Shown here one piece after another: positions 12,133-23,920 of a DNA stretch of 37,413 bases. Made by a program: the position numbers and the translations under genes. The notes beneath the pieces were generated by a model. That model did no database searches. It had not been told where the DNA came from and saw nothing but the letters and a program-made list of their open reading frames with translations. The stretch comes from an uncultured Actinomycetes bacterium (GTDB taxonomy: Bacteria; Actinomycetota; Geothermincolia; Geothermincolales; RBG-13-55-18). The number at the start of each line of letters is the position of its first letter. Within the stretch, counting starts at the first letter, position 1. Location: positions 1-37,413 of the forward strand of contig CAKZMC010000065.1 of the NCBI GenBank assembly GCA_937128055.1, given 5' to 3'.

Positions 12133-12549
12133 CTATGCGGGCTCGAAGGCCAGAAAGGTCCTCGCCTTCTCCCCTTCCCCGCGGTGCAGAAAGGTCGCCT
12201 TCATGGGCATGCCAATCTTTATCGATTCGGGCTTGCTCGCGTCCACTCCCTCGATGCGGGCGACCACGCGCAGGCCCTCGGCGAGGCTTACTACCCCCGT
12301 GCAGTAGGGGTTCTTCCTGCCGTACCCCTCCTTGGCCATGAAGGCGGGCCCGATATATATGCATGTGTAGGCGGCCAGCTCCCCCTCGCCCTTTATCTCC
12401 TGCCATTCCATCTGCGAGCTCCCGCACTCGTGGCAGAAGTGGCGCGGCGGCACGTAGATCTTCCCGCACTTGCCGCATTTCGATCCCATGAGCTTTTCCT
12501 CGTCGAGGAACTTGCGGTAAGAGATGTCGCTGAACGGCCTCTCCTCCAT
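12133..12549 (-). CDS. DUF35 OB-fold/zinc-ribbon acyl-CoA-binding protein
   Basis: A 138-residue partner protein of SCP2-type thiolases and related acyl-CoA enzymes. The N-terminal rubredoxin-like zinc ribbon has C25-G-K-C28 and C39-H-E-C42. A DUF35 OB-fold follows, with ELAAYTCIYIGP, YCTGVVSL and RVVARIEG. In archaeal HMG-CoA synthase/thiolase complexes and in steroid-degradation enzymes such proteins bind CoA and channel substrate. ATG 12549 is preferred over the upstream TTG because AGGAGGT lies just before it; the thiolase stop TAG is embedded in that ribosome site. This implies tight coupling with the upstream thiolase. It is the last gene of the operon. Confidence 0.9.
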   Translation of the reverse strand: MEERPFSDISYRKFLDEEKLMGSKCGKCGKIYVPPRHFCHECGSSQMEWQEIKGEGELAAYTCIYIGPAFMAKEGYGRKNPYCTGVVSLAEGLRVVARIEGVDASKPESIKIGMPMKATFLHRGEGEKARTFLAFEPA

Positions 12550-12553
12550 GGCC

Positions 12554-13825
12554 CTACCTCCTCTCAAAAATGGTGAACGTGCAGGTGCCGCCGGTCCCGC
12601 CCAGGTTCTGGGTGGCCCCGATATAGAGGTCCTTCCCCTTTATCTGGCGTTCGCCCGCCTCGCCCCGCAGCTGCTTCCACACCTCGTACATCTGGGCCGT
12701 CCCCGTCGCCCCCACGGGATGGCCCTTGCACTTGAGGCCACCGGAGGTGTTTATGGGCATGCGCCCGTCTCGCCGCGTGGCGCCCTCCGCGATGGCTTTG
12801 TACCCCTCCCCTTCCGGGAAGAAGCCGAGGTCCTCAACGTGGATGAGCTCCGCGATGCTGAAGCAGTCGTGCACCTCCGCGAACTGCACGTCCTTGGGCT
12901 TGAGGCCGGACATGCCGTAGGCCTCCGCCGCCGCCTGCTTGTTGGCCTCGAAGGAGGTGAGGCTGGGGCAGGCGTGCAGGCCCCTGCCGCTCCCCTGTCC
13001 GAAGCCGACCACGTAGATGGGGTTGTCGGTGTAGTTCTTGGCCAGCTCCTCCGCCACCAGGAGGACGCAGCTCGCGCCGTCGCTTATGGGGCAGCAGTCG
13101 TACAGGTGCATGGGCCAGGCCACGGGAGGATTGAAGCTGGGGTCGAAGAGGGCTTCCTTCTCGTCCGCCCAGTCGGGGACGGGCTCGCCTTTCTTCGCCG
13201 CCCGCGCCTTCTTGGCTTCCATGAGGTCCCGGATGGTCTGCTTGAACTGTGCCTTGGGGTTGAGGGGTGCGTTCTCGTGGCTCTTGATGGTGATGTTCAT
13301 GAGGTGCTCGCGCCCCGCCCCGTACTTGTGGAAATAGGCGGTGGCAAGGGCGCCGAAAACCCCGGGGAAGGTGTAGCCGGCCTCCCCTTCATAGGGAGAG
13401 GTCGCCAGGGCAAGGCCCTCCGTCACCTCCTCGGTGGTGCACTTGGACATCTCCTCCACCCCGCCGGCCAGCACGATGTCGTACATGCCGGACGCGATGG
13501 CCATGAGGCCGTCCCGCAGGGCCAGCGTGCTGGAGGCGCAGGCCCCTTCCGTCCTGGTCACCGCCTTAGGCGCGATACCGGTGAGATCGGCGATGATGGG
13601 GCCCCAGTGCGCTTGGTGCACGAAGAAGTCGTTGCTGAAGTTGCCTATCCAGGCTGCCTGGATATCCGCGGGATCGAAGCCCTTGTCCACGCTGGCGAGC
13701 ATCTCGGCGAAGGCCTCCGCGAAGAGGTCCTTGGAGTCCTTGTCCGGGAACATCCCGAAGTTGGACATCCCGGCGCCCACGATCGCCACTCCCCTTCCTA
13801 TCTTTCTCTTGCTCTTGCCTGCCAT
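12554..13825 (-). CDS. SCP2-type thiolase (acetyl-CoA acetyltransferase family)
   Basis: A 423-residue thiolase-superfamily enzyme. The nucleophilic Cys96 lies in T-E-G-A-C-A-S-S. H319 and C321 lie in V-H-D-C-F-S, and H369 in K-G-H-P-V-G-A-T-G. Such enzymes cleave a 3-ketoacyl-CoA to acetyl- or propionyl-CoA, or run in reverse. The HDCF arrangement and the DUF35 gene directly downstream mark the SCP2/archaeal-type, two-component class rather than FadA. The ORF track starts 101 codons too early: ATG 13825 follows AAAAGGAGGT. It sits 101 bp after the mutase small subunit. A long Lys-rich insert around residue 210 was noted. Substrate unknown. Confidence 0.9.
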   Translation of the reverse strand: MAGKSKRKIGRGVAIVGAGMSNFGMFPDKDSKDLFAEAFAEMLASVDKGFDPADIQAAWIGNFSNDFFVHQAHWGPIIADLTGIAPKAVTRTEGACASSTLALRDGLMAIASGMYDIVLAGGVEEMSKCTTEEVTEGLALATSPYEGEAGYTFPGVFGALATAYFHKYGAGREHLMNITIKSHENAPLNPKAQFKQTIRDLMEAKKARAAKKGEPVPDWADEKEALFDPSFNPPVAWPMHLYDCCPISDGASCVLLVAEELAKNYTDNPIYVVGFGQGSGRGLHACPSLTSFEANKQAAAEAYGMSGLKPKDVQFAEVHDCFSIAELIHVEDLGFFPEGEGYKAIAEGATRRDGRMPINTSGGLKCKGHPVGATGTAQMYEVWKQLRGEAGERQIKGKDLYIGATQNLGGTGGTCTFTIFERR

Positions 13826-13926
13826 ATTCCGACCTCCTTTTACCGGTACTGGTGCAGCGGCTACAGACTTCCTTCTCCTGTCCCTCCACCGGCGACCTGC
13901 CAGGGCACGCCCCGGCGCGGGACAGG

Positions 13927-14337
13927 CTAACCCACCTCCACCCTGCCGAGCTTCTCCCTGATGAAAGCGACGATGTCCCCGGTCACCGTCCCGGGGCCGA
14001 AAACGCCGTCCATGCCGATGCGGCGCAGCTCGTTGTGATCCTCCTCGGGGAACACTCCGCCGACGAGCAGGAGAAAATCGCCGCGCACGCCCTTCTCCTC
14101 CAGCATACGCACCAGCTCCTGCGCCCATTCCAGGTGGGCGCCGGAATGTACGGAGAAGCCGATGACGTCCACGTCTTCCTGTATGGCCGCCTCCACCACG
14201 CCCTCCACGGTCTTGAAACCGAAGAAGATGGACTCCATGCCTGCTTCGGAAAGGGCCTTGGAAACGGTCATGATGCCCCTCCAGTGGCCGTCGAGGCCCG
14301 GCTTGAAGAGCAGCACCCGGATCTTCTTCTCCATCAT
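13927..14337 (-). CDS. B12-binding small subunit of acyl-CoA mutase
   Basis: A 136-residue cobalamin-binding domain equivalent to the C-terminal part of methylmalonyl-CoA mutase, encoded separately as in archaea and isobutyryl-CoA mutase. The signature D16-G-H18-W-R-G21 supplies the lower axial His ligand. The G-F-S-V-H-S and V-G-G-V-F-P-E-E-D segments match the remaining SxL and GG cobalamin motifs. I chose ATG 14337, five bases after GGAGG; the GTG at 14343 overlaps that site and ATG 14334 is possible. The gene starts 10 bases after the large-subunit stop, a classic two-subunit arrangement. No MeaB-type G-protein chaperone is encoded nearby. Confidence 0.92.
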   Translation of the reverse strand: MMEKKIRVLLFKPGLDGHWRGIMTVSKALSEAGMESIFFGFKTVEGVVEAAIQEDVDVIGFSVHSGAHLEWAQELVRMLEEKGVRGDFLLLVGGVFPEEDHNELRRIGMDGVFGPGTVTGDIVAFIREKLGRVEVG

Positions 14338-14347
14338 CCCCACCTCC

Positions 14348-16030
14348 TCAAGCCACGAAGGGCAGCTGCCAGATGCCCCACACCTCTCGGTATACGCTGG
14401 TAATTTCTCCCAGGGTAGCCCCGGCGGCGGTCAGCTCGCTGACTACCGGCAGGACGTTCTCGCGCGCTTCGCATACCTTGCGCAGCTGGTCGAGCAGCTT
14501 GCCGACCTTCTGGTTATCCCTCTCGCGGCGCAGGTCCTGCAGGCGCTCCCTCTCTATGTCGGCGGCGCGGGGGTTGGTGCGGAAGGGCGGCGTGGGCTCC
14601 TCGCCTTCCAGGACGTAGCAGTTGACGCCGATGACCTTTTCGTCCCCGCTCTCCTGGTCGCGGCGGCGCTTGTTGAAGGCCTTGCTCATCTCGCCGAAAA
14701 GCCAGCCGGTGTTAAGGGCCTCCACCACGCCCCCCATCTCCTCGATCTGCTGGAAATACTCCCAGATGCGCTCCTCCAGCTCGCGGGTGAGGGATTCCAC
14801 GTAATAGGACCCGGCCATGGGGTCTATGACGTTGGCCACCCCGGTTTCCTCCTGCAGGACCTCCTGGGTGCGCACCGCCAGGCGCACCGCATCCTCGGTG
14901 GGCAGGCAGATGGCCTCGTCGAAGGAGTTGGTGTGCAGGGACTGGCAGCCGCCCAGCACCGCCTCCAGGGCCTGGTAAGCGGTGCGCACGATGTTTACCA
15001 TGGGCTGCTGGGCGGTGAGGGAGCAACCCGCCGTCTGCACGTGGAATCGGAAGCGGTAGGCATCGGGGTTCTCGGGGCGGTAGCGCTCCTTCATGAGGCG
15101 GTACCACAGCTTGCGCGCCGCGCGGTACTTGGCTATCTCCTCGAAGAAGTCGCGGTGGGCGGAGAGGTGGAAGGCCAGGCGGTGCACGAAATCGTCGATC
15201 TTCCAACCCCGGCGCAGCAGCTCGTCGATGTGGGCCACCGCGTTGGCCAGCCCCATGCCTATCTCCTGCACGGCGTCTATGCCTCCCTCGCGGTAGTTGT
15301 AGGTGGTGAAGTTTATGGGGTTCCAGCGCGGCGCCTCCCCCATGGCCGTGCAGTACTCGATGAGGTCGCAGGCCAGCTTGAGCAGGTCCGCCGGCTTCAG
15401 GGAACCCCAGGGGATGTACCCGATGGTCATGGTGAGGATGTCGTTCTGCGTGGTGCCGGCGAGCTGCTCCTTGCGTAAACCCCTTTTCTTGGCCACGTTG
15501 AAATACATGGAGGTGATGGCGGCGGAGGTCAGGGGCTCGACCACCAGCGCAACGCTCATCCTGTCGATGGGAAGATTTTCAACCATAGCCTCCACGCCGC
15601 GTATGGAATACAAGGGCACCCCTTCCTTTCCCACCTCATGGGCCGCCCCGTGCACCTCCTGGTCGGGGTCCACCCCGGCGAAGGTAAGTGAGTCCACCGC
15701 GGCCGAGAAGCCCGTCTCCCCCTCCTCGTAGAGCATCTTCCAGCGCTGGTTGGTCTCCTCCGGAGTCCCGTGGCCGGAGAACATGCGTATGGTCCACAAC
15801 CTTCCCCGGTACATGGTGGGATACACGCCTCGGGTGTAGGGTGGCTGTCCGGGGAACCCGATGTCCTCCAGGTAATCGATCCCCTCCGTGTCCAGGGGGG
15901 TGTAGAGGTCCTTCACCGGGATACCGGCATCCGTGTGGAAGGATTCCCGGCGTTCCGCCCAATTCTCCTTCGCCTTACGCCAATCCTCATATCCGCGTCT
16001 GATCTCCTCAAGGTCGGCCATCCTCTTCAT
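14348..16030 (-). CDS. Acyl-CoA mutase large subunit, noncanonical active site
   Basis: A 560-residue TIM-barrel subunit of the adenosylcobalamin-dependent methylmalonyl-CoA mutase superfamily. Conserved blocks include [43 protein letters not shown] and [11 protein letters not shown]. By ungapped comparison with remembered MCM sequences, the residues that hold methylmalonyl-CoA are changed. Tyr89 becomes F84 (RMFSG), Arg207 becomes Y205 ([10 protein letters not shown]), and the near-universal His244 becomes N245 (TTYNYREGG). It is therefore unlikely to be a plain methylmalonyl-CoA mutase. A related carbon-skeleton rearrangement on an uncharged or bulky acyl-CoA is possible. ATG 16030 follows GGAGAAGGGAAGGGG; ATG 16021 is an alternative. 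The small subunit follows. Confidence 0.88.
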
Positions 16031-16274
16031 CCCCTTCCCTTCTCCGCGTGTCCCGCGCGTGAGCGCCGGCGCACCCGCTTTCCGTCGCACACGGGGCGTT
16101 GCTCTATCCAGCCAAACTCTCAATCGTTGCCGCCGGGCACCTCATGCCCGCAGATCGCCGCCGGGGGGCACGTCCTTACCCGCGCCCCCGCGCTTCTTGG
16201 GATCGCGCGCTCTCCCCTACCGGAGGGCCAAGGCCGCCTCGCGCGCTTTCGGAGCCGTCCTCACCCCCGCCCTC
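16031..16274 (-). other. Gene-free gap inside the operon
   Basis: These 244 bases separate the SDR stop from the mutase start on the same strand. They are GC-rich, with no ribosome site other than the mutase's own. I see no convincing promoter or terminator, although the length leaves room for one. Confidence 0.35.
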
Positions 16275-17033
16275 TTAGAAGGTGAACAGGCTGATGCCCC
16301 CGCTCACCTCGATGGCCTCGCCGGTGAGGAAACTGGCTTCCTCCGAAGCCAGGAAAGCGATGACCTCGGAGAGCTCCCGCGGGTCGCCCGAACGGCGCAT
16401 GGCCACCCTCTTGATGATGCGCTCGCGAAACGGCTCGGCCACGTCGTAGAAGCTGCCCGCGTCGAAGACGCCCAGCACCACCGCGTTACAGGTGATATTC
16501 TTGCGCGCCCCCTCGAGGGCGACGGTCTTGGTGAGGCCGAGGAGGCCCGCCTTGGTCGCCGCGTAGCTGCACTGGCCGAACCCTCCCATGGTCCCGGTCA
16601 CCGAGGAGACGTTGATGATCCTCCCCCAGCCCATTTCCGCCATGTCGGGAAAGACCGCCTTGATGAGCAGGAAGGGGCCGGTGAGGTTGACCGCCACGTC
16701 CGCATCCCAGTCTTCCTTGCTCATATCGGTGATGGTGATCGCCCGCACGATCCCCGCGGCGGCGTTGTTCACCAGGATGGCCACCGGCCCCAGCTCTTCC
16801 CTAACCTTCCGCACGCCCTCGTTGACGCTCGCCTCGTCCGCGAGGTTCATCTTCACCGCCAGGGCTCTGCGGCCCATGCCCTCGATCTCCTTCACAACCT
16901 CCTGCGCCTTGGCCTCGCTGCGGTTGTAGGTCAGGGCCACGTCGGCACCCTTCCCGGCAAGCACCAGGCCGTGCACCCTGCCGAGCCCACCCGATCCGCC
17001 GGTCACCAGCGCTACTTTGCCCTCCAGAGACAT
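16275..17033 (-). CDS. Short-chain dehydrogenase/reductase (FabG-like)
   Basis: A 252-residue classical SDR that interconverts a hydroxyl and a keto group with NAD(P)H. The cofactor loop T11-G-G-S-G-G-L-G18, N-N-A-A (89-92), the catalytic S144 region (NVSSVTG), Y157-A-A-T-K161 and the C-terminal E-V-S-G-G-I are all in place. The ORF track start is 46 codons too early: ATG 17033 lies 7 bases after GGAGG, while ATG 17039 is too close. Between a thioesterase and a CoA-mutase, its likely substrate is a 3-hydroxyacyl-CoA or a hydroxylated intermediate, but FabG-like sequences are not diagnostic. Val-Leu-Gly replaces the usual Pro-Gly after the active site (AVVLGVFDAG), which is unusual. Confidence 0.88.
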   Translation of the reverse strand: MSLEGKVALVTGGSGGLGRVHGLVLAGKGADVALTYNRSEAKAQEVVKEIEGMGRRALAVKMNLADEASVNEGVRKVREELGPVAILVNNAAAGIVRAITITDMSKEDWDADVAVNLTGPFLLIKAVFPDMAEMGWGRIINVSSVTGTMGGFGQCSYAATKAGLLGLTKTVALEGARKNITCNAVVLGVFDAGSFYDVAEPFRERIIKRVAMRRSGDPRELSEVIAFLASEEASFLTGEAIEVSGGISLFTF

Positions 17034-17201
17034 GAGCATCCCTCCTATGAGTTCCCGAAAGATTCCGACCGCCAACAGGCTATCGCATCGACTCCCGGCT
17101 CCCGCCGCCGACCGTACCCCGTGGCGCAAACGCTTGCTCCGGCCAGGCTCAGCGCCACGCGAAACCTCCATACCCGAAAGAAGCAGGCAAGACCGCGGCC
17201 A

Positions 17202-17624
17202 TCATCCCTCATGCTGCAAGGGCCTTTCGGTGTGGTAAGCCCATCCCCGGCACTGGGCTATGCTCTTTCCCTTGTCGTCCGTTACCGACATGCGGTAATA
17301 TCCCATCTTTCCGGCACGCGAGACGAGTTCCACATCGGCCGTTATCTCCCCATCCGTTTCCGGCGCCGCAAGAAAATCTATCCCCACCGAGAGCGCCATC
17401 GCCTTCTTGCCGAAGGAATTGGCCGCCGCCCCGAAAGCCACGTCCGCCAGGGAAAAGATCACTCCACCGTGTATCATGCCCATGAAGTTCGTGTGCTGCG
17501 GTCTCAGCGCGAGCGCCACCCTCGCGTAGCCGGGCCTGATCTCCAGCAACCTGGCTCCCAGGTGCTCCGCGTAGCTGTCGCTCTCTATGACCGCCCTGCT
17601 CTCGTCCGATACCTTCTTCTCCAT
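17202..17624 (-). CDS. PaaI-like hotdog-fold acyl-CoA thioesterase
   Basis: A 140-residue hotdog thioesterase that hydrolyses acyl-CoA esters. The PaaI signature is clear: H-T-N-F-M-G-M-I-H-G-G-V-I-F-S-L-A-D-V-A-F, including the catalytic Asn-Gly-HGG and Asp positions, followed by A-A-N-S-F-G. PaaI enzymes often rescue CoA stalled on aryl or dead-end acyl groups. It is the first enzyme gene of the acyl-CoA operon, directly downstream of the palindromic operator. The start ATG 17624 has only a weak ribosome site (AAGGG). The C-terminus (YHTERPLQHEG) is short. Substrate not readable from sequence. Confidence 0.88.
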   Translation of the reverse strand: MEKKVSDESRAVIESDSYAEHLGARLLEIRPGYARVALALRPQHTNFMGMIHGGVIFSLADVAFGAAANSFGKKAMALSVGIDFLAAPETDGEITADVELVSRAGKMGYYRMSVTDDKGKSIAQCRGWAYHTERPLQHEG

Positions 17625-17734
17625 CCCTTACCCCGTTTAGCCGATTCCCCTACCGCCCGCCCTCGCCGTTTGGCTTCCCTCCCTCCGCCCTTCACTGTGC
17701 GGGAGAGACCGAGGGAGAGAGCAGTTGATTATGG

Positions 17735-17766
17735 AAACTGAAAAACTAAATATGGTTTATCAGTTT
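17735..17766. promoter_or_regulatory. 32-bp palindromic operator
   Basis: The two 12-base arms AAACTGAAAAAC and (reverse complement) AAACTGATAAAC match at 11 of 12 positions around an 8-base AT-rich centre at 17750.5. It covers the -10 box of the predicted promoter, so a bound repressor would block transcription. Its size suits a TetR or PadR dimer. The TetR encoded just upstream is the likeliest binder. Confidence 0.65.
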
Positions 17767-17777
17767 AAATAATTCAA
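17749..17777 (-). promoter_or_regulatory. Promoter of the thioesterase-mutase-thiolase operon
   Basis: On the minus strand TTGAAT (17777-17772) is followed by 17 bp and CATATT (17754-17749). Both boxes match consensus at 4-5 of 6 positions. It is the only good promoter-like pair upstream of the thioesterase and is overlapped by the palindrome. The predicted leader is about 118 bases. Confidence 0.55.
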
Positions 17778-17990
17778 TCATCGTCCCCTCGACCTGTCAA
17801 GCTCGCCACCTCGTAAACCCATGATGCTTCTCCTTGCCAGGGCGGCACGCTTACTCTCCGCCCCGCCATCGCCTGCCCGCACGATCCCTTCGGCCTCGCG
17901 GCAGCGCCCTCGCGCCGAGGGCCGAGCGCGCGGCGAGCACCGCCAAACGCCACGCCGAAGGCCGTTTCCGCGCGCATCCCGCTTGCAGGG

Positions 17991-18623
17991 TCAGCACGCG
18001 GCGCCGGCCTTCCCGCGGCCGGCGGAGCGGCCTTCCGCCGCCTCCCGGTACCCCGGCGCCACTATACCCTCCATGATTATCTTCATAAAAGCGGTGTACA
18101 CCTCCTCAAGGCTGAGACCGCTCTCGATGAGCAGGTAGGGATTGCTGGACAGCTCCACCATTCCCTGCACGAGGTACGCGAACACCACCGGATTGACGTC
18201 GGACCTGAAGATGCCGGTGCGGGTACCCTCCTCGATGATGCTCACCACACCCCCGACGATCCTGCGGTAAAAATCTCCGTAGACGTTGAAGACATCCGGG
18301 AAAAAGGTCTCCACCTCCTTGACCAGCGAGGGCTTGATGTGGGAAAGCTCGTCCACGATGTACTTGCTTGCCAGGTACAGCTTGGTCATGGCGTCCTCGT
18401 CGAGGTCCATTATCTCCTGCATGCGCCTCAGGATCTTGCCGGCTCGCCGGTTCAGAACGGTGGTAAAGAGTTGGTCCTTGGAGGAAAAGGACTCGTAGAT
18501 GGTCTTCTTGCTCATGCGTAACCTCTGGGAGAGATCATCCATGTTGAAACGGCGGTAGCCGACCTCGAAGGCGAGTCTCTCCGCCTCTTCCAGGATCTTC
18601 CTGGTATTGCTATCCCTGCTCAC
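17991..18623 (-). CDS. TetR-family transcriptional regulator
   Basis: A 210-residue TetR repressor. The N-terminal helix-turn-helix is typical: KILEEAERLAFEVGYRRFNMDDLSQRLRMS, then KKTIYESFSSKDQLF at about 38-53. An all-helical ligand-binding domain follows. The start is GTG 18623, overlapping the end of the PadR gene by 14 bases, so translation is probably coupled. TetR proteins near acyl-CoA genes often sense a CoA ester. This one lies immediately upstream of the palindromic operator of the acyl-CoA operon and is the likely regulator. The final about 20 residues are Gly/Ala/Arg-rich. Ligand unknown. Confidence 0.9.
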   Translation of the reverse strand: MSRDSNTRKILEEAERLAFEVGYRRFNMDDLSQRLRMSKKTIYESFSSKDQLFTTVLNRRAGKILRRMQEIMDLDEDAMTKLYLASKYIVDELSHIKPSLVKEVETFFPDVFNVYGDFYRRIVGGVVSIIEEGTRTGIFRSDVNPVVFAYLVQGMVELSSNPYLLIESGLSLEEVYTAFMKIIMEGIVAPGYREAAEGRSAGRGKAGAAC

Positions 18624-19215
18624 CTCTCGCCACGCCTTTCCGCTTACCGCCCTCAGCCGCCTTCCTCTCTCTCCCCTCCCCCGCGTCCACAGCGTCTATT
18701 TTATCAATAATGCTGCGAAGCCAGTCCGCCTCGACGCGATAGAGCCTCATCTCGTGCTCAAGGAGCACGGTGTGCATCTCCTCCGCTACGCCGGCCAGAA
18801 GATCCCTTTCGGTGGCGATGCGTTTCGCCTGGGCTTCCAGGAAGGATAGCCTTCTCTGCAGGGCCTCCCGCGCCTCCTCCGGGCGCAGGGCGTGCACGAA
18901 GGCTAGGCCTATGGCTCCCTCCCAGCGCAGCGGCTCCTCCTCGGCGCATATGTCGTACACCGCGTCCCGCAGCCTCTCCTCGCCTTCGGCGGTGATGCCG
19001 AAGACCCTCCTCTCCGGCATATTGCCGTCCTTTTCCATCCAGGAGCTCAGGCTTCCTTCTTTTTCCAGCCTGGCAAGGGCTTTATAGACTGCGACCTTGC
19101 TCACCCCGCTCCAGCGAAGGAAGCCTCGTTCTTCCATGATACGGAGAAGGTCGTAACCGTGTCTCTCCCCGCCCGCCAGCAACCCTAGGATCATCGTCTC
19201 CACGCGGGAGGTCAT
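18610..19215 (-). CDS. PadR-family transcriptional regulator
   Basis: A 201-residue PadR regulator. The winged helix is well conserved: ILGLLAGGERHGYDLLRIMEERGFL, then VAVYKALARLEKEGSL and a wing with RRVFGITAEGEERL. A long helical dimerisation domain (about 95-175) and a basic tail follow. An AAAGGGGG site supports ATG 19215. PadR repressors respond to aromatic acids or other small molecules in known cases. A perfect 17-bp palindrome lies 30 bp upstream, suggesting autoregulation. It is co-transcribed with the overlapping TetR gene, an uncommon two-repressor arrangement. Confidence 0.9.
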   Translation of the reverse strand: MTSRVETMILGLLAGGERHGYDLLRIMEERGFLRWSGVSKVAVYKALARLEKEGSLSSWMEKDGNMPERRVFGITAEGEERLRDAVYDICAEEEPLRWEGAIGLAFVHALRPEEAREALQRRLSFLEAQAKRIATERDLLAGVAEEMHTVLLEHEMRLYRVEADWLRSIIDKIDAVDAGEGRERKAAEGGKRKGVARGEQG

Positions 19216-19244
19216 ACCGGGTCCCCCTTTATTTCACCGTTAAC

Positions 19245-19261
19245 TATTTAACAGTTAAATA
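19245..19261. promoter_or_regulatory. Perfect 17-bp palindrome, candidate PadR operator
   Basis: TATTTAACAGTTAAATA reads the same on both strands apart from the central base. An overlapping second dyad GTTAA/TTAAC lies at 19239-19252. It is placed 30-46 bp upstream of the padR-like ATG, inside the expected promoter, which fits autorepression. Confidence 0.6.
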
Positions 19262-20892: not shown

Positions 20893-21138
20893 TCAGTTTA
20901 CCCACTCGGCGATCTCGCTTGTGGTGGGCACGGTGCAGCGCCAGGCATGCAGCTCCATGCCCTCCTCGTCGACCACCACGATGGAAGGCGTGCAGAGCAC
21001 GCTGTAAAAGGCGGCCTCCGCCAGGCCGTCCACCTCTTCCACATCGAAGATCTCGGTCTGCGGGAAGCGTCCGGCCACTTCCTTGGCCGCCGGGCATTTC
21101 TGGCAATCTCGCTTGATAAAGACCTTAAGGTACTGCAT
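20893..21138 (-). CDS. Glutaredoxin/thioredoxin-like small redox protein
   Basis: An 81-residue thioredoxin-fold protein with a redox pair C12-Q-K-C15 after a first strand (YLKVFIKRD) and a cis-Pro loop C-T-P-S-I-V-V-V. The size and position suggest an NrdH-like electron donor, although class III reductases usually take electrons from formate or from thioredoxin in the NrdD2 type. That makes it a candidate reductant for this NrdD. AAAGGAGGT precedes ATG 21138, which overlaps the nrdD end by 14 bases. An extra Cys precedes the cis-Pro (L-C-T-P). Function inferred from location. Confidence 0.8.
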   Translation of the reverse strand: MQYLKVFIKRDCQKCPAAKEVAGRFPQTEIFDVEEVDGLAEAAFYSVLCTPSIVVVDEEGMELHAWRCTVPTTSEIAEWVN

Positions 21139-23920
21139 GCCTCATACCTCCTTTCATGTCCGTACGCACGCGGTCCTTCAGCTCCCCCAGCTTTCCCCTG
21201 TTCCAGGTCGTTATCTTGGAAAAATATCCCACTATGCGGGTGATGCCGTACACGTTCTTAGAGCCGCAGTCGCAGCACCTCTCGTGCAGGCCCCTATTGG
21301 TGCGCCTGCAATCGTTGCACACCGTGAACTCCGGGGAAAAGGCGATCTGGGAGGACTGGGTCTGGCGGAAGGTCTTGATGACGAAGTTCTTGATCGACTC
21401 CGGGTCGGGTTCGTGCTCCCCCAGCCAGATATGGCAGATGGCACCCGCCTCTATGAGCGGGTGAAAGAGGCTCTGCTTCCTCACCCTCTCGACATAGTCG
21501 ATGTCCGCGTACACGTTGAGGTGCACGCTGTTGGTATAGTAGTACTCCCCGTTATGCAGGTTTCCCTTGAGCACCCTGGACGCCTGCGCCGGGTAATACT
21601 TCATGTCCAGCTTCGCCAGGCGGTAGCCGCTGGACTCCGCCGGGGATTCCTCCAGCACCAGGTTGATGCCGTATTCCTTGGAAAGGTCCTCGCAAGCCCG
21701 TTTCATGTGCGCCACCACCTTGAGCCCGAACTTCAGGGCCTGTGTGGATTCGTGCAACTGCTGCCCGGTATGGTACTGCACCATCTCGTTGAGGCCCAGT
21801 AGCCCCGACAGGTAGGTCAATCTGTCTAGGCGGAGGTAGGGATCGCCGTCCTTGGCGTCGCAGAGCACGGAGAGGGGGCCGTTTACGCCCAGTTCAAGGA
21901 GGCCGGCGATGAAGTCCCTCTTCTGTATGTGTGCCCTAGCCACCATCTGCATGGCCTTCTGAAGCTCGGCGAAGAGGACCTCGTCGGAGCCGTTGGCCTT
22001 GTAAGCTATGCGGGGCAGGTTGATGGTGATGTTCTGCAGGGCGGTGAAACGCATCTTCTCCGGGGTCCTCGTCTCCTGGAGGTCCTTTTCCTTCAGGCGG
22101 AGCTTGAGGCGGCAGCACTGGGACACGGTGACCTCGTCGCCGCGGTCGAAGACGAAATAGGTTATCCCCTGGCGCGACGCCACCTTGCAGGCCAGCGAGA
22201 GAAACTCCTCGTGCCCCTCGGTGCGGAAGAAATCCTCGCTTATGTGGAGTAGGGGCTTGGGAAAGACGAAGGTCTTGCCCATGGCATCTCCCTCCAGGTA
22301 CACCTCGAAAAGGGCCTTGAGGAAGGTCTGCGCCTCCTTCTCGTATTCGCCGTAGGTCTTACCCGTGTACACGCCGCCGGGACCGATGGCCGGGGTGTCC
22401 CGGAAATGGCGCGGTATGTTCCAGTACAAGTTGAAATCCGTGAAGACGACCTGGCTGCCCCTTGCCCCCGCCAGCTGGTTGAATTCGTAGATGAGCATCT
22501 GCGCCAGCTGCCTGACGCGTTCGTATTCCAGGCCTACCAGGTAGGGGGCGAAGAACATGTTCACCGCCTCCCAGCCGATGGCGCCGGCATAATGAGACTG
22601 CAGGGTGGAGGCCATCTTGACCATGTGCCCGATGAGCACTTCCGGATGCTTGGCGGGACGCGAGGTGCTGGTTATGTTGGGGAGCGAGATGCCGTACTTC
22701 TTGATGTAATCGAGGCTGTGGCCGCCGCAATTATGGGAATAGATGCCGTTGGCGATGAGGGTCCCGCTCTCCGTGGTCACGTCGTAGACGTAGACGTCCA
22801 GCACCTCCACCGGCTCCACCATGATCACCCTGGCCATGTTCGGCGTTCCGCCGGACGACGTCCGCGCCCTTTCGCGACCCTTCTTCTCCCGGCGCGCAGC
22901 AGCCCTCGAGGCGCTGGCGACCATCTCGCTCAAGCGCCGCCTGGCCACCAGGATGTCCCCGGCGTTGAAGCGCAGCCTCAAGGTGGTGGCGTTGGCCTCC
23001 AGGAGGTGGGTGGCGTTTATCTCCTCCAGCTTGCGCGCCTTGCCCTCGGGTATCTCCAGGGTCTCCACCTCCTCGCCGACCTGCACCAGGGATGCCGGCT
23101 TTACCTCCTCCGCCGTGATCACCGGGTGATCGTGGGTGACGACGCAATACCTGCCGTCGGAAGTGGCGATGAAGACCATCTGTTTCCCGAGGCGGTCCTT
23201 CTTGACCACCCTCTTTATGCCCGTCCATTCCCCCGCGTGGTCGAGGATCTCCATGTCCGAGGGGTATTTAACCCTCACCGTGGGCTCCGGCCTGCTCTCC
23301 CCCGGGAGGAGATGGTAAAGCTGCTCCATGGTGGTGGTAAAGACCACGGGGGAGCCCTTGACCCTCCAGTGGATGACCGTGTCACCGAGGTAGGAATAAG
23401 GCCGGATGATGAAGCCCAGGTCGTGCAGGTGTATATCACCCAGCATGTGGGCGCGGGCGATATCCTCGGAGAAGACCTTGCGCAAGGCGAATTCCTTGAG
23501 GATGGCCTCCGCCAGCGTGAGGTTGATGGACTCCGGGTTATGGGTGGTGTTGCTGTTCTCCTTGTTGGCGCTGGTGATGATCTGCTCCACGTCGTACATG
23601 GGAAGGCCCAGGTGAGAGTGTTTCTTGTGCATGGTCCCCAGGCCCCGCTCGAGAAGCTCCAGGTCGACCAGCTCGCGGATGATGGAGGTGGTGACCGTGT
23701 TCATCCTGCCCTGGACTATCCTCTCCTCCACGCGGTCGGCTATCTCCTGGGCCAGCTCCGGGCTGGCCTCGGTCTCCAGGATGAGCGAGTTCACTATCTT
23801 GCTCTTATCCCAGAGGTTGATCTCCTCCTTCGACGAGGTACTTACAAGGAGGGCGATGTCCGTAGAATCCTCGGCGGCCTCCTTGCGCTTGAGAACCCTA
23901 ATGCTGTTGGCAGCCGTCAC
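21125..23920 (-). CDS. nrdD: Anaerobic ribonucleoside-triphosphate reductase with intein
   Basis: A class III, glycyl-radical ribonucleotide reductase precursor of 931 residues, about 709 after splicing. An N-terminal ATP-cone-like domain (about 30-95) precedes the catalytic barrel. HDLGFIIRPY175 is interrupted by an intein (176-397), and the extein resumes at C398-G-G-H-S-L-D-Y. Near the C-terminus a zinc site C-N-D-C...C-D-C-G and the glycyl-radical loop R-I-V-G898-Y are intact. The start is GTG 23920 behind GGGGAGGGGAA, 33 bp after nrdR. It makes dNTPs without oxygen and is activated by NrdG. The extein lacks obvious frameshifts, so the spliced enzyme should be functional. Confidence 0.93.
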   Translation of the reverse strand: MTAANSIRVLKRKEAAEDSTDIALLVSTSSKEEINLWDKSKIVNSLILETEASPELAQEIADRVEERIVQGRMNTVTTSIIRELVDLELLERGLGTMHKKHSHLGLPMYDVEQIITSANKENSNTTHNPESINLTLAEAILKEFALRKVFSEDIARAHMLGDIHLHDLGFIIRPYSYLGDTVIHWRVKGSPVVFTTTMEQLYHLLPGESRPEPTVRVKYPSDMEILDHAGEWTGIKRVVKKDRLGKQMVFIATSDGRYCVVTHDHPVITAEEVKPASLVQVGEEVETLEIPEGKARKLEEINATHLLEANATTLRLRFNAGDILVARRRLSEMVASASRAAARREKKGRERARTSSGGTPNMARVIMVEPVEVLDVYVYDVTTESGTLIANGIYSHNCGGHSLDYIKKYGISLPNITSTSRPAKHPEVLIGHMVKMASTLQSHYAGAIGWEAVNMFFAPYLVGLEYERVRQLAQMLIYEFNQLAGARGSQVVFTDFNLYWNIPRHFRDTPAIGPGGVYTGKTYGEYEKEAQTFLKALFEVYLEGDAMGKTFVFPKPLLHISEDFFRTEGHEEFLSLACKVASRQGITYFVFDRGDEVTVSQCCRLKLRLKEKDLQETRTPEKMRFTALQNITINLPRIAYKANGSDEVLFAELQKAMQMVARAHIQKRDFIAGLLELGVNGPLSVLCDAKDGDPYLRLDRLTYLSGLLGLNEMVQYHTGQQLHESTQALKFGLKVVAHMKRACEDLSKEYGINLVLEESPAESSGYRLAKLDMKYYPAQASRVLKGNLHNGEYYYTNSVHLNVYADIDYVERVRKQSLFHPLIEAGAICHIWLGEHEPDPESIKNFVIKTFRQTQSSQIAFSPEFTVCNDCRRTNRGLHERCCDCGSKNVYGITRIVGYFSKITTWNRGKLGELKDRVRTDMKGGMRHAVP
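22730..23395 (-). mobile_element. Mini-intein in NrdD
   Basis: A 222-residue protein intron (NrdD residues 176-397). Block A is S176-Y-L-G-D-T with a Ser nucleophile, block B contains V-T-H-D-H-P-V-I-T, block F V-Y-V-Y-D-V-T-T-E-S-G, and block G I-Y-S-H-N397 followed by C398. About 100 residues between blocks B and F are Arg/Ala-rich and show no LAGLIDADG or HNH motif, so the homing endonuclease has been lost. All splicing residues are present: Ser1, block-B His, penultimate His, terminal Asn, Cys+1. Splicing is therefore expected. Confidence 0.88.

Follow-up and report, generated by a model that had tools for sequence, protein, structure and literature searches.

A conserved palindrome as the predicted TetR operator of a B12-dependent acyl-CoA enzyme operon in uncultured Actinomycetota

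Introduction

Bacillus subtilis FadR and Mycobacterium tuberculosis FasR are TetR-family regulators which bind acyl-CoA and regulate acyl-CoA metabolism; FasR is an activator, as its NCBIfam title also indicates. In Azoarcus, an anaerobic acyl-CoA pathway is repressed by MbdR, a TetR-family protein which responds to 3-methylbenzoyl-CoA. QacR regulates a drug pump, and its IR1 operator is a long inverted repeat to which two dimers are bound. Two TetR dimers are also found on overlapping palindromes in the case of DarR, a TetR-family repressor of mycobacteria and Rhodococcus (PMC10636190).

The DNA analyzed here (the window) is a stretch of 37,413 nucleotides from an uncultured bacterium; among its relatives, those with names are the Actinomycetota MAGs Candidatus Solincola and Candidatus Geothermincola. 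It contains a palindrome which, judging from sequence comparison, is very likely bound by the neighboring TetR repressor and sits on the predicted transcription start of an operon for B12-dependent acyl-CoA enzymes. In this way, a lone palindrome would become a predicted regulator-operator pair for an uncharacterized B12-dependent acyl-CoA pathway in the uncultured Actinomycetota related to Candidatus Solincola.

The TetR Locus and Its Operon

PadR, TetR, and the operon genes are all encoded on the minus strand. The PadR regulator (18610-19215; Pfam PadR, 3.2e-13) is followed by the TetR regulator (17991-18623; Pfam TetR_N, 1.3e-11), whose recognition helix was read from an alignment as RMSKKTIYESF. 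After TetR, a gap of 366 nt holds the palindrome, and the first operon gene past it, identified by profile matches, encodes a PaaI-like hotdog thioesterase (17202-17624). This is followed by a FabG-like short-chain dehydrogenase (16275-17171, with a start that may lie further in), the large subunit of a B12-dependent acyl-CoA mutase (14348-16123), its small, B12-binding subunit (13927-14343), an SCP-x type thiolase (12554-13830, with the start placed at about 13830 in an ORF open to 14128), and a ChsH2/BbsA-like zinc-ribbon OB-fold partner of the thiolase (12133-12567), with which the operon ends at 12133. These gene annotations support the preliminary description of the locus, made from the sequence alone, in which an acyl-CoA operon was placed beside a TetR gene.

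The linked regulator has the helix-turn-helix of its family, scoring 44.5 bits with Pfam TetR_N against a cut-off of 24. The all-helical C-terminal ligand and dimer domain of the TetR fold is also present, as seen in an AlphaFold model (pLDDT 80) which Foldseek matched to TetR structures with a best E of 1e-6. The protein scores well below the cut-offs of the NCBIfam equivalogs for FadR (36.7 bits vs 200) and FasR (32.9 bits vs 330).

For the mutase large subunit, the nearest solved structure is 2-hydroxyisobutyryl-CoA mutase. Ile90 and Asp117 of HcmA, which we take to be the specificity residues of that enzyme, align to Phe and Ala in the window protein, which in this respect departs from 2-hydroxyisobutyryl-CoA mutase. 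The loop near the MCM Arg207 region of the large subunit (14348-16123) differs too. In other genera (L040, 7722-8933; also L043 and L047), an acyl-CoA dehydrogenase-like gene lies between the dehydrogenase and mutase genes; it is missing in the window genome and in its genus mate L038. Elsewhere in the window, the anaerobic ribonucleotide reductase ORF (21125-23920, 931 aa) includes a segment which resembles an intein and ends in ...NGIYSHNCGG.

The Palindrome and Its Promoter

The palindrome is an inverted repeat, AAACTGAAAAAC / TAAATATG / GTTTATCAGTTT, located at 17735-17766. Its arms of 12 nt are complementary at 11 positions around a spacer of 8 nt, which confirms the palindrome originally reported. 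In terms of conserved tetrads, the 32 bp element has the form AAAC-N4-AAAC-N8-GTTT-N4-GTTT and was assigned to neither strand. By comparison with other loci, it resolves into two AAAC-N16-GTTT units which interleave at an offset of 8 bp, namely unit 1 (17743-17766, minus strand) and unit 2 (17733-17758, minus strand), the latter as AAAC-N16-GTTTCC, the form common to distant TetR relatives.

No other repeat of this class (12-nt arms, at least 11 matches, spacers of 3-30 nt) was found in the window. Since Markov sequences of equal composition contain about five such repeats per window, the symmetry of the palindrome is not significant in itself; in 100-nt stretches with the local AT-rich composition, such a repeat arose in 0.6% of trials. 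The support beyond chance is the phylogenetic conservation of the sequence, not its symmetry.

The palindrome is preceded by a predicted minus-strand promoter with a -35 hexamer TTGACA at 17795-17800, a -10 hexamer TTGAAT at 17772-17777, and an extended -10 TG at 17779-17780. Comparison of the 11 genomes of the family showed both hexamers and the TG to be exact in eight of them, in the arrangement TTGACA-17/18-TGn-TTGAAT, with a spacer of 17 in the window. TTGACA is also exact in both genomes of family f3, where TTGACA-16-TAATAT or TTGACA-16-TATCCT, each with TG, lies just ahead of the site; three genomes of genus g4 are without the TTGACA/TTGAAT promoter. The transcription start is better read as lying at about 17765, a predicted position which would place the operator over approximately -1 to +31.

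The preliminary description had proposed another promoter, in which TTGAAT (17777-17772, minus strand) was the -35 and CATATT (17754-17749) the -10, so that a TetR operator would cover the -10. Both hexamers are indeed present in the window at a 17-nt spacing, and a similar pair is found in L038. However, the spacer in which CATATT lies shows little conservation, the spacing drifts to 18-19 in other genomes, and 10 of 13 genomes give TTGACA-16/18-TGn-(-10) the higher score. Because TTGACA-17-TGn-TTGAAT is kept in the same eight family genomes and has an equivalent in both order-level relatives, the proposed -35 is more plausibly the -10, with the operator over the start site instead. Use of the TTGAAT-17-CATATT promoter is unlikely.

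Conservation of the Site With TetR

Genomes of the class (31 in total) were scanned for the site pattern AAACTNANAAAC-N8-GTTTNTNAGTTT with at most three mismatches. The TetR ortholog is present in 13 of the 31; exactly one match was found in each genome with the ortholog (13/13) and none in those without it (0/18). The site is thus a palindrome at the target promoter which is conserved together with its regulator, as in TetR-family operators. A reversed-pattern control gave no matches in the class genomes, and among 297 genomes of the phylum the core pattern was confined to this clade.

The 13 genomes with the ortholog therefore share the motif, a condition which the preliminary description had set for defining a regulon, and this conservation, along with the linkage to TetR in f3, supports its suggestion of a repressor operator as far as sequence comparison reaches. 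The wider regulon for which it had hoped did not materialize, since the genome-wide scan returned one site per genome. In the window's own genome, no second site was found by scanning with the arm or with the full site; single units with at most one mismatch gave more than 100 matches, and exact ones occur four times elsewhere, near the chance number, mostly in GC-rich sequence. Genome G008 encodes a second TetR with 39% identity, yet has no second site. In G017 (L049, 3594-4157), the TetR ortholog has an in-frame TGA stop, which may reflect damage to the gene or faulty assembly; the operator is intact.

Across the 13 sites, the tetrads AAAC, AAAC, GTTT, and GTTT at site positions 1-4, 9-12, 21-24, and 29-32 are invariant, with the exception of position 1 (12/13), and the positions between them vary freely. 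The base after GTTT is C in 13 sites, and 12 of them have CC there. The minus-strand RNA of one copy folds well (-11.5 kcal/mol, z -5.4), which would suit a hairpin acting as an attenuator or terminator in the leader. This function is extremely improbable, as the U-run is absent, positions 5-8/25-28 are unpaired in 4-8 of the 13 genomes, and copies of the element are also found ahead of unrelated genes associated with the TetR class. Tetrads fixed in sequence, free positions between them, inner pairs which are often broken, and covariation not above that of shuffles argue for a protein site rather than an RNA stem.

Gene order is kept in the 11 family genomes, and PadR is encoded beside TetR in 11/11, an arrangement in which PadR rather than TetR could be the protein that binds the palindrome. 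In the two f3 genomes, the site persists directly upstream of tetR, after which come the two mutase genes, and PadR was not found at either locus. As the site moves with tetR in f3 while PadR is gone, comparison assigns it to TetR as the cognate regulator and not to PadR. Moreover, a separate palindrome, TWAACT-N7-AGTTWA, lies upstream of PadR, and the AAAC-N16-GTTT site also accompanies TetRs from other phyla with this class of helix, making PadR a highly improbable binder. In the window, the sequence upstream of padR is TTAACTATTTAACAGTTAA (19240-19258), and several genomes of the family again have TWAACT-N7-AGTTWA ahead of padR; it is likely the autoregulatory operator of PadR.

A Shared Operator Grammar Across Phyla

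Distant TetRs were retrieved using protein patterns, chiefly the helix R[MI]SKKTIY, without reference to DNA sites. This gave 71 loci, mostly at 20-33% identity, from Ignavibacteriota, Bacteroidota, Bacillota, Actinomycetota, and others. Of these loci, which are not phylogenetically independent, 46/71 had AAAC-N16-GTTT no more than 160 nt ahead of tetR, where shuffles gave about 1, and 45/71 had AAAC-N16-GTTTCC, where shuffles gave 0.08 and random places 0.7. A scan of spacings over the 71 loci produced a sharp peak at N = 16 and near-background levels at all spacings other than 16, 17, 7, 2, and 24-26, of which 7 and 25 are those expected from a second unit offset by nine. Five Bacillales loci have the whole quartet at offset 8 with 0-1 mismatch, beside tetR-adjacent amidohydrolase-transporter operons. 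The unit is also carried by SKRT-helix paralogs in genomes of the class studied here, three of which paralogs have the full quartet at offset 9. Given that TetRs with other helices, taken from the same and related genomes, have AAAC-N16-GTTT in 0/30 cases, this comparison marks the element as the type of operator belonging to one helix class. In L022 and L023, a different SKRT-helix TetR has a quartet operator (offset 9) upstream of its gene, and a further B12-binding subunit of an acyl-CoA mutase is encoded after tetR, which suggests a repeated pairing of TetR and mutase.

For this analysis, TetRs with the recognition helix SK[KR]T[ILV]Y and an AAAC-N16-GTTT unit close to their gene were defined as an SK[KR]T-helix TetR group. 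The window TetR belongs to it, with RMSKKTIY and both units present. Putative target genes in the group include acyl-CoA mutases, efflux pumps, dehydrogenases, and amidohydrolase-transporter operons. It is reasonably likely that TetRs with this helix form a subfamily spanning several phyla whose operators follow one grammar, in which AAAC-N16-GTTT units are interleaved at an offset of 8 or 9 bp, and that targets and ligands have diverged. If true, the operators of hundreds of unstudied regulators would be readable from the helix alone. The recurrence of the four-part signal upstream of related TetRs in several phyla would make sites predictable for many unstudied repressors, and the correspondence between recognition helix and DNA signal is a testable rule across phyla which would aid regulon annotation in genomes without experiments. 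A search of open papers returned no earlier description of this grammar, and its newness is provisional. The palindromes of lugdunin LugR/LugJ differ from the one described here.

Proposed Mode of Regulation

Taken as a whole, the palindrome is with high probability the operator of the adjacent TetR, with two interleaved units just past an extended -10 promoter, from which TetR would block the start site of the operon until released by an acyl-CoA of the pathway. TetR would occupy both AAAC-N16-GTTT units, probably as two dimers. The half-sites within one unit are 20 bp apart, which is wide for a single TetR dimer, and the two-dimer arrangement is likely since overlapping palindromes with two dimers are known for DarR and QacR. 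Bound at the start site, the repressor would stop transcription of the thioesterase-dehydrogenase-mutase-thiolase operon at initiation or in early elongation, and binding of an acyl-CoA or a related pathway intermediate would release it. An acyl-CoA is the best guess for the effector, by analogy with FadR and FasR.

FasR, one of the nearest solved relatives, activates its target, and TetR could conceivably activate the operon from the palindrome in the same manner. However, the site overlaps or follows the transcription start, a position typical of repressors, and in f3 it lies between the promoter and tetR, as in autorepression. Activation is distinctly improbable, and we infer repression, as we do the two dimers and the acyl-CoA effector.

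Comparison With Known Systems

FadR and FasR are among the closest named solved relatives of the window TetR in both sequence and fold, at approximately 15-20% identity, and the operator of B. subtilis FadR differs from the window site. MbdR is a weak match in sequence and fold; its pathway differs from that of the window operon, and its operator from the window site. QacR is a weak sequence relative, and the half-sites of IR1 differ from those found here. The DarR motif is ATACT-N4-AGTAT (PMC10636190), whereas the window site is built from AAAC and GTTT tetrads, in a grammar of N16 units offset by 8 or 9 bp.
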